Below are positions 9,775 to 37,728 of a stretch of DNA of 64,000 bases, piece after piece; the stretch's first letter is position 1; every line of letters begins with the position of its first letter. The stretch comes from Hyphomonas adhaerens MHS-3 (GTDB lineage Bacteria; Pseudomonadota; Alphaproteobacteria; Caulobacterales; Hyphomonadaceae), in the NCBI RefSeq assembly GCF_000685235.1, contig NZ_ARYH01000001.1:310001-374000 (forward strand), in the 5' to 3' direction. A model generated the notes under the pieces. It saw only the letters and a program-made list of their open reading frames with translations, had not been told where the DNA came from and made no database searches. A program made the position numbers and the translations under genes.

Positions 9775-10149
9775 AGACCAGACGGCCGGGCAGCCGCTGG
9801 CATGCTGGTAACGGCATGCTGGAGGAAAGTCCGGGCTCCAGGGATACAGGGCGACGGCTAACGGCCGCCCGGCGCAAGCCGAGGGAAAGTGCCACAGAAA
9901 GCAAACCGCCTCCCCTCGGGGAGGTAAGGGTGAAAGGGTGGGGTAAGAGCCCACCGCAGGCCTGGCGACAGGACTGGCACGGTAAACCCCGCCCGGAGCA
10001 AGACCGAATAGGGGGCGCGCATGGGCTGTATCCCGCCTGCGCCCCGGGTGTGTCGCGTGAGGTGCCTGGCAACAGGCATCCCAGAGGAATGGCTGCCAGA
10101 CCCATGGCAACATGGGCGAACAGAACCCGGCTTACAGGCCGTCTGGTCT
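9775..10149 (+). ncRNA. rnpB: RNase P RNA (type A)
   Basis: The universal core GAGGAAAGTCCGGGCTCC is present at about 9821-9838, followed by ACAGGG and the typical GGTAAGGGTGAAAGGGTG and CCCGCCCGGAGCAAGACC blocks. The 3' part contains the family signature GGCTTACAGGCCGTCTGG. The closing P1 helix is exact: GACCAGACGGCC at 9776-9787 pairs with GGCCGTCTGGTC at 10137-10148, which fixes both ends. This is the catalytic RNA that matures tRNA 5' ends together with the RnpA protein. A TATATA box at about 9763-9768 is a likely -10 for transcription starting near 9775. Confidence 0.95.
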
Positions 10150-10180
10150 TTTCTCCCGGTCGTGCAAAGCACGGCAATTC

Positions 10181-33627: not shown

Positions 33628-34350
33628 CTAGATTTTTTCTAGTATTTCCTTACCTTTAATTGCTGCACCTGCGAACAAGACCTCCAGGCTGGCCTTCGCT
33701 TCAGGTGACCATACGGCACCCGGCGACGCCGCGAACACCGCTTCGCTTTTCAGGATCAGCCCGTCCGACAGGATTTTCAGCCCGTTGGCTTTCAGCGTCG
33801 CCCCGGTGGAGGTGATATCGACGATCACATCGGCCGAACCTGTCGTGGGGGCAGCTTCCGTCGCCCCGGCGCTCTCAACCAGGCGGTATTCCCCGACAGA
33901 CCGGGCCGCGAAGAAGCGGCGCGTGAGGCGCATGTATTTGGTCGCCACCCGGAGGCGGCGGTGATGCGCCTTGCGGAACGCTGCGCCCGCCGCTTCGAGA
34001 TCCGACATCGTGTCGACATCGACCCAGGCCTGCGGCACGGCGACGATCACGTCCGCCCCGCCGAAGCCGAGCCGTTTCAGAACCTCGAAATCGCTCTCCC
34101 CGGTCGGGGCGAGATCATGCAGCAGGTCTTCCCCGGTCACGCCGGCATGCAGGCTGCCATCGACCAGGCCCTGCGCGATCTCCCGCGCGGAGAGAAGCCG
34201 CATCTCGACATCGCCAAGGCCTTCGATCTCTGCCTGATAGCCGCGCTCGCCGCCGATCTGGGTGACAGGGAAACCGGCCGAGGCCAGCCAGGCTTCGGAT
34301 TTTTCCTTCAGCCGTCCCTTGGACGGAATGGCAAGTGACAGACGGGTCAT
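33628..34350 (-). CDS. hisG: ATP phosphoribosyltransferase, short form
   Basis: A 240-residue enzyme that makes phosphoribosyl-ATP, the first step of histidine synthesis. Signature blocks are LAIPSKGRLKEK (residues 5-16), GVTGEDLLHDL, RLRVATKYMRLTRRFF (about 124-140) and the PRPP loop DVIVDITSTGATLKANGLKIL (about 170-190). The protein lacks the C-terminal regulatory domain of long HisG and so must pair with HisZ. The ATG overlaps the hisZ stop (34350-34347). Confidence 0.93.
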   Translation of the reverse strand: MTRLSLAIPSKGRLKEKSEAWLASAGFPVTQIGGERGYQAEIEGLGDVEMRLLSAREIAQGLVDGSLHAGVTGEDLLHDLAPTGESDFEVLKRLGFGGADVIVAVPQAWVDVDTMSDLEAAGAAFRKAHHRRLRVATKYMRLTRRFFAARSVGEYRLVESAGATEAAPTTGSADVIVDITSTGATLKANGLKILSDGLILKSEAVFAASPGAVWSPEAKASLEVLFAGAAIKGKEILEKI

Positions 34351-35477
34351 GCGCCCCTCCCCTTTGCACGCAGCACGCGGTCGGGCCGCACCATGCCGCC
34401 AATGGCGGTCGCATCGGCCGCAGCGTTCGACAGGCCGGAGACGAGGCCGTCATAGCGCCCGCCGGACGCGATCGGCTGGTTGTCCGACAGGTTCGGCCCC
34501 AGCGTTTCAAACAGGAAGCCGTCATAATAGGTGAACCGGCGTCCGAAGCCGGAGCGGAAGCGGCAGATGGCCTTCACTTCCGGCAGCAATTCGCGGATCA
34601 GTTCCATGCGCCGCGCCACACGCTCAATGGCGCCGGAGGTGCGCGGCAGGCTGTATTTTACGGCAATATCGTCAAGCTGATCGGCGGCCTCCGCTGCGGT
34701 ACAGTTCACGGCAGCCAACGCGCCGATCACTTCCCGCACTTTTTCCGGCACGCCGCCGGCGGCAAGCGCCGCGGCCCGGGCACGCAGGCCCGAAATGATT
34801 TCCGGAACGCTCCGGGTTCCGATCAAGGGAATACCGCGTGCGGCGAGGGCGGCGCGGAAGGCCGTTTCGGCCTCGGCCTGCGTCGCCGCTTCCAGCGTCG
34901 GCACAAGGTCTGCCTCGATGGGCGCCGGCTCCGCTTCGACCAGGGCCCGTACGCCGCCTTCCTGCCGGAAGGCTCGTTTCAGCAGGTCCGCCGTCACACG
35001 CGGCAGTCCGAGGGCGTCAATAAAGGCCGGGAAAATGGCAAGGTCCCCTGTGGCAATCGCCACCGGAACGACATCGCACGCGCGCACAGCTTCGTGCACA
35101 AGGGCGAACGCCTGGGCATCCTCGACGGGGTCGGAGTCGAGCCCGAACCGTTCGAAGCCGACCTGCGTGAATTCCATCGGGTCGCCCGGTGTGGCCGGCA
35201 GGCGGAACGCCTCGGCCGCGTAGCAATAGGCTTTCGGCCCGTTGGCGCCACTGGCGAGGCGGTCGGCTTCCAGCCCTGCCACCGGCAGGGTCAGGTCCGG
35301 CCGCATGACCATTTCATTGCCGCGATGATCCGTGAACACGCAAAGCCGCGCACGGACCGCTTCGCCGGACAGTTCCAGCGGAATATCGGACGGCAGGATA
35401 TAGGCGGGATTGACCGGCTCAGCGCCAGAGCCCTCGAACCGGGACCGGGCGGCCTTGACGATAGCGGCGTGCGTCAT
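34347..35477 (-). CDS. hisZ: ATP phosphoribosyltransferase regulatory subunit HisZ
   Basis: A 376-residue HisRS-like protein without synthetase activity. The core shows RPDLTLPVAGLE, FTQVGFERFG and the C-terminal SGGRYDGLVSGL, which mirror histidyl-tRNA synthetase motifs but lack the intact catalytic set. It binds short HisG and confers feedback control by histidine. It overlaps hisS at its start (35477-35474) and hisG at its end, so the three are translated as a coupled operon. Confidence 0.9.
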   Translation of the reverse strand: MTHAAIVKAARSRFEGSGAEPVNPAYILPSDIPLELSGEAVRARLCVFTDHRGNEMVMRPDLTLPVAGLEADRLASGANGPKAYCYAAEAFRLPATPGDPMEFTQVGFERFGLDSDPVEDAQAFALVHEAVRACDVVPVAIATGDLAIFPAFIDALGLPRVTADLLKRAFRQEGGVRALVEAEPAPIEADLVPTLEAATQAEAETAFRAALAARGIPLIGTRSVPEIISGLRARAAALAAGGVPEKVREVIGALAAVNCTAAEAADQLDDIAVKYSLPRTSGAIERVARRMELIRELLPEVKAICRFRSGFGRRFTYYDGFLFETLGPNLSDNQPIASGGRYDGLVSGLSNAAADATAIGGMVRPDRVLRAKGRGA

Positions 35478-36979: not shown

Positions 36980-37127
36980 GCACCGCATAGTCGGTGCTGG
37001 TCCGGATTGGAAGGCGACACGTCAACATCAGGCACGCCCCGGCTGTGGCTTGCCTCGTCTGGTCTGGTTCTTGGGGGGAACACTTTAGCAGAGGCGCAGC
37101 CGGACCGGTTCGCGCCTCATCGGCGCG
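36980..37127 (-). promoter_or_regulatory. his leader RNA: mutually exclusive hairpins
   Basis: Immediately after the leader stop, CGCGCC (37111-37116) and GGCGCG (37122-37127) form a 6-bp hairpin. GCGCCTC at 37112-37118 can alternatively pair with GAGGCGC at 37091-37097, breaking the first stem. A third stem, GCACCG (36980-36985) with CGGTGC (36992-36997), lies just upstream of hisS. There is no U tract, so termination may be Rho-dependent or the control may be translational. Confidence 0.5.
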
Positions 37128-37166
37128 TCACGAATGGTGATGATGGTGGTGCAGTGCTGTGTTCAT
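37128..37166 (-). CDS. hisL: his operon leader peptide, MNTALHHHHHHS
   Basis: ATG 37166-37164 opens a 12-codon frame, Met-Asn-Thr-Ala-Leu, then six consecutive histidine codons (CAC CAC CAT CAT CAC CAT), Ser, TGA. It lies 172 bases upstream of hisS on the same strand, directly downstream of a promoter whose -10 ends 10 bases before the ATG. The mRNA may therefore be leaderless or nearly so. Ribosome stalling on the His codons when His-tRNA is scarce would then choose between the two RNA folds at 37091-37127. This is the textbook logic of attenuation, applied to a hisS-hisZ-hisG operon. Confidence 0.85.
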   Translation of the reverse strand: MNTALHHHHHHS

Positions 37167-37176
37167 TACGAAAAGG

Positions 37177-37205
37177 CCGATACGGGGGCGCCTGCGCAAA
37201 GTCAA
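37177..37205 (-). promoter_or_regulatory. his operon promoter
   Basis: TTGACT (37205-37200 on the minus strand), a 17-base spacer, and TATCGG (37182-37177). The -10 ends 10 bases before the leader-peptide ATG at 37166. The -35 lies next to the tandem repeats at 37212-37273. Confidence 0.65.
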
Positions 37206-37211
37206 CCGAAA

Positions 37212-37273
37212 GGTCAGGCCTTCCCGGTCATGCCTTTTGGTCAGGCCTTTTCGGTCAGGCCTTCTCGGTCTGG
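37212..37273. repeat. Four and a half tandem 14-bp repeats upstream of the his promoter
   Basis: Copies of GGTCAGGCCTTNNC begin at 37212, 37226, 37239, 37253 and (partial) 37267, with spacing 14, 13, 14, 14. Each carries the palindrome AGGCCT or its variant. The array overlaps the last codons and stop of the thioesterase gene and ends 7 bases from the -35 of the his promoter. Confidence 0.75.
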
Positions 37274-37728
37274 CGCGTGAACGGCTTCTCCTGCCCGTCC
37301 CGGCGCTCGATCACCTTGAAAATGCCCGTGCCGCGCATCAGCAGCTTGTCGTCCGCCCAGATCTTGCCCTCGACCGTGAACACATCGTCCTGCCGGCCGA
37401 TCACGTGGCCCTTGCCCTCGACAAAGCTGCCCTGCTTGGCGCCGGACAGGAAATCGCACATCAGGCGCACGGTGACCCACCAGGTATCGTCGTTCTTTTC
37501 GACCGCTGCGCCCCACGCCATGTCGGCGAAGGTCATGAGCATGCCGCCATGGGCATTCATCATGCCGTTGGTGTGGTGTTCCTCGACGCGGAAGGCGCGG
37601 GTGAGGCCCGTCTCGTCCCGCTTCTCGAACAGCGGGCCCACCTGGCGGCCGAAGCCCCGGTGCCAGGGCAAAATCTGGTAGCCGTCCGGCAGGTCGAAAG
37701 TCTGGTTGCGTGAAAGATCGTCAGTCAT
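37255..37728 (-). CDS. PaaI-type hot-dog thioesterase
   Basis: A 157-residue protein. NGMMNAHGGMLMTFADMAWGAAV (about residues 53-75) is the hot-dog central helix of acyl-CoA thioesterases of the PaaI family; the HGG motif is the usual catalytic region. It presumably cleaves an acyl-CoA. The final residues (QTEKA) and stop lie within the tandem repeat array, so the C terminus may have changed with repeat number. Confidence 0.8.
   Translation of the reverse strand: MTDDLSRNQTFDLPDGYQILPWHRGFGRQVGPLFEKRDETGLTRAFRVEEHHTNGMMNAHGGMLMTFADMAWGAAVEKNDDTWWVTVRLMCDFLSGAKQGSFVEGKGHVIGRQDDVFTVEGKIWADDKLLMRGTGIFKVIERRDGQEKPFTRQTEKA

Follow-up and report, generated by a model that had tools for sequence, protein, structure and literature searches.

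Attenuators that respond to histidine have been reported for the his operons of gammaproteobacteria and for hisZ and hisS paralogues in bacilli (PMC4833913, PMC2965389, PMC9413887). In Sinorhizobium meliloti, rnTrpL begins at the trpL AUG, and the RNA and the peptide both act in trans (PMC7298713). In Caulobacter, 375 leaderless mRNAs are known (PMC4117421). A search of the freely readable literature found no report of a leader preceding hisS in Alphaproteobacteria. Here we describe a short, His-rich leader ORF upstream of the hisS-hisZ-hisG operon of Hyphomonas adhaerens MHS-3, on the minus strand of a 64,000-nt window (contig NZ_ARYH01000001.1, positions 310,001 to 374,000; coordinates below are those of the window). 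We think it likely that the leader is a ribosome-controlled attenuator of the operon, in which the RNA adopts either a state X that permits read-through or a state Y that leads to a stop.

The leader and its promoter, P1, can be read directly from the minus strand. The -35 box TTGACT (37205-37200) is followed by a 17-nt spacer, the -10 box TATCGG (37182-37177) and, 10 nt further on, by the ATG at 37166 that opens the ORF. The promoter, the gap of 10 bases and the ORF with six His codons had been reported in a first-pass annotation, and the sequence is exactly as described there. With only 10 nt between the end of the -10 box and the ATG, the transcript is expected to be leaderless; it probably starts at the AUG or a few bases to either side of it. 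The ORF, whose frame and codons are conserved, is presumably translated. Runs of five His codons occur at only three places in the 3.67-Mb genome, of which the leader is one; another (L176) is antisense within an ABC-transporter-like gene. The three downstream genes have overlapping ends, and profile matches agree with their earlier assignment as a His-tRNA ligase gene followed by those for HisZ and a short HisG. As in his-type attenuators, then, the genes downstream of the leader are cognate to the amino acid its codons specify. Between the upstream thioesterase gene and P1, at 37205-37290, are several imperfect copies of a short AGGCCTTYTCGGTC-like unit. Elsewhere in the window, at 9778-10150, lies a class A bacterial RNase P RNA (314.6 bits).

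Table 1. Features of the hisS leader region and operon in the window.
Feature	Position	Strand	Basis
Promoter P1, TTGACT-N17-TATCGG	37177..37205	-	Sequence; spacing kept in relatives
Leader ORF, MNTALHHHHHHS and stop, 12 residues	37128..37166	-	Conserved at 63 distinct loci; covariance model E 1.5e-23 here
Six His control codons in tandem, CAC CAC CAU CAU CAC CAU	37134..37151	-	
Element A, AUGAACAC, start codon region, pairs with E	37159..37166	-	Pair counts
Element B, CGCGCC, immediately 3' of the stop codon, 5' arm of B:C	37122..37127	-	
Element C, GAGGCGCG, partner of B or of D	37111..37118	-	Pair counts, folding
Element D, UGCGCCUC, 3' arm of C:D	37091..37098	-	
Element D*, CCGGUCCGGCUGCGCCUC, C:D loop plus D, complementary to F*	37091..37108	-	
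Element E, AGUGUUC, partner of A or of E' (GUUC:GAAC)	37078..37084	-	
Element E', GAAC, apical hairpin with E inside D*:F*	37067..37070	-	
Element F*, 3' arm of the long hairpin D*:F*	37034..37057	-	Duplex versus shuffles
Candidate promoter P2, CTTCCAAT-N15-CTATGC	36985..37013	-	Conserved block upstream of hisS, family alignment
hisS, histidine-tRNA ligase, 493 aa	35474..36955	-	HisRS model TIGR00442, 371 bits
hisZ, ATP phosphoribosyltransferase regulatory subunit	34347..35477	-	HisZ-type models, best 195 bits, none at curated cut-off
hisG, short catalytic subunit	33628..34350	-	TIGR00070

To ask how far the leader is shared, we searched for HisS, which was present in 100 of 105 genomes from the family and in 80 named contigs; the nearest named relative is Hyphomonas sp. 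CY54-11-8 (97% in HisS). The sequences upstream of hisS were taken from these loci and from 60 further stretches. Leaders of the same layout could be anchored before hisS in 63 distinct versions, from Hyphomonas, Henriciella-type and related genomes. Most have 4-6 His codons, at a fixed position upstream of hisS, and the distance from TTGAC to ATG is 29-33 nt in 63/63. Most of those from Hyphomonas and Henriciella read MNTxLHHHHHHS/A; forms such as MKTxLHHHHQQT and MKTxLHHLHPKT, and shorter ones, occur elsewhere. A covariance model built from the leaders had a single match, at hisS, in each of 62 out of 398 genomes from the order, at places that agree with those from the HisS search. The alignment of upstream regions that had been proposed with the first reading thus finds a short ORF with tandem cognate codons, the mark of a his-type attenuator, conserved at 63 loci, so that a lack of conserved His codons, which would have refuted the first reading, does not apply. 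Residues outside the His run vary, except at the RNA-paired start, where codons 2-3 (AAC ACN) are better conserved than codons 4-5, a difference explained by the A:E RNA pairing described below.

In the named set, hisZ and hisG directly follow hisS at every leader locus with enough downstream sequence. At hisS genes that lack hisZ-hisG, for example in Brevundimonas, neither this leader nor the longer Caulobacteraceae type described below was found. Some hisS-hisZ-hisG operons have no leader, including those of at least two Hyphomonas lineages that appear to have lost it while keeping hisZ-hisG. The Hyphomonas genomes that have hisS and no leader are those of L020, L029, L030, L047 and L115, and the tree suggests at least two separate losses. 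The operon itself, which had been called unusual for containing no other his gene, is nothing out of the ordinary: many relatives have hisS-hisZ-hisG alone and without a leader. Three contigs labelled Candidatus Sulfopaludibacter or Acidobacteria (L042, L046, L047) carry Hyphomonas-type hisS operons, and these MAG names look wrong. Just before hisS, a conserved block reads as a candidate second promoter, P2, which overlaps a possible hairpin (GCACCG-ACTATG-CGGTGC, 36980-36997). A related form of this block is also present in relatives without the leader.

The stop codon of the leader is followed by two overlapping and mutually exclusive hairpins, of about -12.6 and -13.4 kcal/mol: B:C (CGCGCC/GGCGCG, 37127-37122 with 37116-37111) and C:D (GAGGCGCG/UGCGCCUC, 37118-37111 with 37098-37091). 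Both had been noticed at the outset, but the structure is larger, as A:E and D*:F* pairings are present too. Folding the leader as a single sequence told little (z -1.6). RNAalifold on all 63 leaders recovered B:C alone, as loops differ in length and the alternative pairings compete with each other; the pairings were therefore tested singly. B:C is paired in 99.7% of cells (62 sequences) and C:D in 97.2%. In A:E, element A pairs with the downstream GUGUUCAU, giving six pairs in the window (GAACAC:GUGUUC). Its inner pairs are formed in 94.8% of cells, with ten CG-to-AU double changes (AUGAAAAC/GUUUUCAU), mostly from one clade, and with wobble changes at other positions. Further variants seen by eye are GAGCA/UGCUC (L152) and AUGAG/CUCAU (L058). 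At 58/63 loci A:E has at least six contiguous pairs or is paired at that site; L058 pairs elsewhere, and A:E is weak or absent at L017, L151, L153 and L154. Whole structures are 94-95% paired, and only 17-64% once the partners are slid. In sum, A:E, B:C and C:D are pairings shown by comparison among the relatives.

The backing for the long hairpin D*:F*, whose 3' arm lies some 30-50 nt beyond D*, is weaker than that for A:E, B:C and C:D. The duplex has -26.3 kcal/mol in the window, where a fraction 0.02 of shuffles is equally good; D*:F* beats shuffles (p <0.05) at 35/63 loci, with a median of 0.04. RNAalifold applied to Hyphomonas alone gave six D*:F* pairs, which are kept in nearly all Hyphomonas with no double-sided changes, so that support comes from complementarity versus shuffles and from compensated variants by lineage, such as GCGUCUCUG/CAGAGACGC (L026) and ACCCA/UGGGU (L134). 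The small hairpin E:E' (GUUC:GAAC) is kept in 34/34 and 14/14 aligned relatives, invariant and hence without covariation within these sets; at L055 the equivalent, judged by eye, is GUUUU:AAAAC. Pair counts and folds indicate that B:C excludes C:D and that A:E excludes E:E', and mutually exclusive structures are again what a his-type attenuator has.

These pairings suggest a two-state RNA switch, with B:C, D*:F* and E:E' making up X, and C:D and A:E making up Y. Counted from the AUG, A occupies nt 1-8, the His codons 16-33, the stop codon 37-39 and B 40-45. A ribosome spans about 15 nt on each side of its P site. Given these positions, the choice between the exclusive structures would depend on the ribosome. 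Transcription from P1 would begin at or near the AUG, with ribosomes translating the His-rich leader behind the advancing RNA polymerase. If charged tRNA-His is scarce, a ribosome waiting on the His codons should cover A and leave B free; B:C could then form, D would be released to F*, and the operon would be read through. If charged tRNA-His is plentiful, a ribosome at the stop codon should cover B and free A, so that C:D forms, A pairs with E, and transcription stops shortly after. That both pairs of alternatives shift together is the main argument for a switch set by ribosome position. Equilibrium folding finds X much more stable than Y, and Y can thus act only during transcription, with RNA polymerase near. 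The choice of X as the ON state would follow from physiology: Y is taken as OFF because a shortage of histidine should raise hisS. The leader is thus probably a real switch that raises HisRS when charged tRNA-His is scarce, and since HisRS charges tRNA-His the loop would be one of negative feedback. P2 may supply a basal level of hisS. The core of the first-pass annotation, a probably leaderless His-codon leader through which charging of tRNA-His controls hisS-hisZ-hisG, is supported by the conserved codons, the promoter spacing and the exclusive hairpins.

How transcription would stop in state Y, by a hairpin or by Rho, bears on the best-placed alternative, which is a variant of the attenuator reading and compatible with it. 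C:D and A:E together may expose a C-rich, G-poor stretch after E, on which Rho would act, while the loop of D*:F* would close that stretch in state X. On this strand of the window, no U-tract or terminator-like site was found after the leader, just as had been stated earlier, and neither hairpin is followed by one; a GC hairpin with a U-tract is thus absent from the window, and weak U-rich tails occur in some relatives only. Inspection by eye shows the stretch beyond E to be rich in C and poor in G in most relatives. Against this, Rho sites cannot be reliably recognised from sequence, and at L027, L055, L127 and L152 a U-rich tail after C:D resembles a weak intrinsic terminator. Termination by Rho is a contender to which we give a little less than an even chance.

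The first reading had named translational control beside Rho; with no U-tract Rho stays viable, but the translational option loses ground to a tRNA gene. ARAGORN found a tRNA-Gln(TTG) gene between the leader and hisS at seven distinct loci of a sister group (L055, L126, L127, L132, L141, L151 and L154). All seven leaders contain Gln codons (7/7), compared with 2/56 at loci without the gene; Fisher's exact probability, calculated by hand, is about 6.5e-8 when the loci are counted as independent and kinship is ignored. One of the two exceptions, L149, has its Gln codons beside what reads as a decayed tRNA-Gln. On the tree the tRNA label changes at least three times if the genome of L149 is counted as a carrier. 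Since L147 keeps sequence that looks like the two ends of a deleted tRNA, loss of the tRNA is part of this history. The match between Gln codons and tRNA-Gln gene suggests that these leaders may also sense Gln. Tentatively, and with slightly more doubt than belief, we propose that the leaders represent an attenuator of new layout, with the message's 5' start codon itself serving as a switching strand, and that a sister clade senses tRNA-His and tRNA-Gln at once, the Gln codons being lost with the tRNA gene.

The tRNA gene also bears on where control is exerted. A ribosome on the leader might open or close the hisS start site, or couple translation, with transcription not ended; the conserved element with its possible hairpin just upstream of the hisS start and the lack of a visible intrinsic terminator would fit such a scheme. 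We regard it as improbable, given that about 170 nt separate the leader stop from the hisS start, that the hisS start takes part in none of the supported pairings, and that in seven relatives the intervening tRNA-Gln has to be cut from the transcript. Such cutting would sever the leader from the hisS mRNA, which speaks for transcriptional control rather than for control of hisS translation. The opposite polarity, in which D*:F* blocks and C:D permits, is no better placed. D*:F* is the strongest structure, and its position resembles that of the 3:4 hairpin of a classical attenuator. It likewise has no U-tract, however, and a stall on the first His codons, by leaving B free, would favour D*:F* and so shut the operon in a histidine shortage.

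A function for the peptide or a short attenuated RNA in trans, as with peTrpL and rnTrpL, or metal binding by the His run, would make the operon position secondary. There are precedents in the trans-acting RNA and peptide of S. meliloti (PMC7298713) and in the matching Caulobacter region, which Rfam lists as an sRNA family on the opposite strand. Yet linkage to hisS-hisZ-hisG is strict, Gln codons track the presence of tRNA-Gln, and residues beyond the His run vary except at the RNA-paired start, leaving these readings very little room. That the His run is due to chance or is a His-tag sequencing artefact, as the resemblance of MNTALHHHHHHS to a cloning tag might suggest, is refuted for practical purposes: the leader occurs naturally in 63 distinct versions, which come from independent genomes, differ in their choice of His codons and keep the flanking folds.

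Further leaders precede hisS in other lineages. At 18 loci in Caulobacteraceae, including Caulobacter and Phenylobacterium, there is a longer and different His leader, typically MTRTPHHHGHHHHPTSPRGIGRVRSL followed by a stop; a -10-like GCTATA lies near its ATG. After this leader come exclusive hairpins of its own: AGCCCC/GGGGCU is 91% paired, not beyond shuffles on all measures, and CGGAUGG/CCAUCCG is 97.6% paired, with UA-to-CG double changes in five sequences. A model of this leader found matches in 41 of 398 genomes from the order, and almost all of these belong to one other family. The Caulobacter His leader is overlapped, on the opposite strand, by Rfam family RF01528 (sRNA CC3513; L075:3727-3900), and the strand or nature of the CC3513 sRNA may need revisiting. 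We also looked at 17 long-type hisS loci elsewhere in the class, 16 of them outside the order and one from another family of the same order. Only G505 has a clearly His-rich leader; other flagged ORFs at these loci were rejected as His leaders, being longer frames with scattered His. In the G505 group, an order of small genomes (L257-L286), His-rich short ORFs that look independent in origin precede hisS. In one family the ORF ends in THRHHFHAGCTLAI and a stop, and a tRNA-His gene separates it from hisS; in another it reads MIVFTHHHIHI and stop. The presence of His-rich hisS leaders in so distant an order suggests that such control arose repeatedly.

If the attenuator reading holds, codon-counting control of histidine genes would reach an alphaproteobacterial operon for a tRNA synthetase. 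The model genus Caulobacter would be among the bacteria concerned, and there the equivalent region is so far catalogued solely as an opposite-strand sRNA. The leader codons that match a tRNA gene of the operon would be a natural record of which tRNA a leader senses. A message that probably starts at its AUG, and whose AUG pairs with a downstream strand, raises the question whether leaderless RNA can switch off translation of its own sensor peptide.

Several known systems can be set beside the Hyphomonas leader. No T-box riboswitch was matched at the leader by Rfam, and neither RF00514 nor any other Rfam his leader model matched it, whether at the gathering score or at E up to 5. The leader also has no match to RF01528, which covers the Caulobacter His leader region with 134.7 bits, is modelled on the opposite strand and is annotated only as an sRNA. 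In Bacillus, the leaders of hisZ and of a hisS paralogue (Naville and Gautheret 2010, PMC2965389) likewise have a short ORF with a run of His codons. They belong to Firmicutes and were found as premature terminators; the authors saw no similarity to proteobacterial leaders, and the available part of that report describes neither a leaderless start nor start-codon pairing (PMC2965389). The S. meliloti trpL attenuator is alphaproteobacterial like the present one, and its RNA begins at the AUG of the leader ORF, as is predicted for Hyphomonas; it differs in its Trp codons, in controlling trpE(G), and in the terminator hairpin of the published scheme (PMC7298713). The enterobacterial hisL attenuator (Rfam RF00514, His_leader) likewise combines a short ORF of tandem His codons with exclusive hairpins and control of His-related genes. 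The Hyphomonas leader, in contrast, precedes hisS-hisZ-hisG rather than a his biosynthesis operon, lacks a U-tract terminator in the window, is probably leaderless, and would use the start codon region itself as a switching strand.
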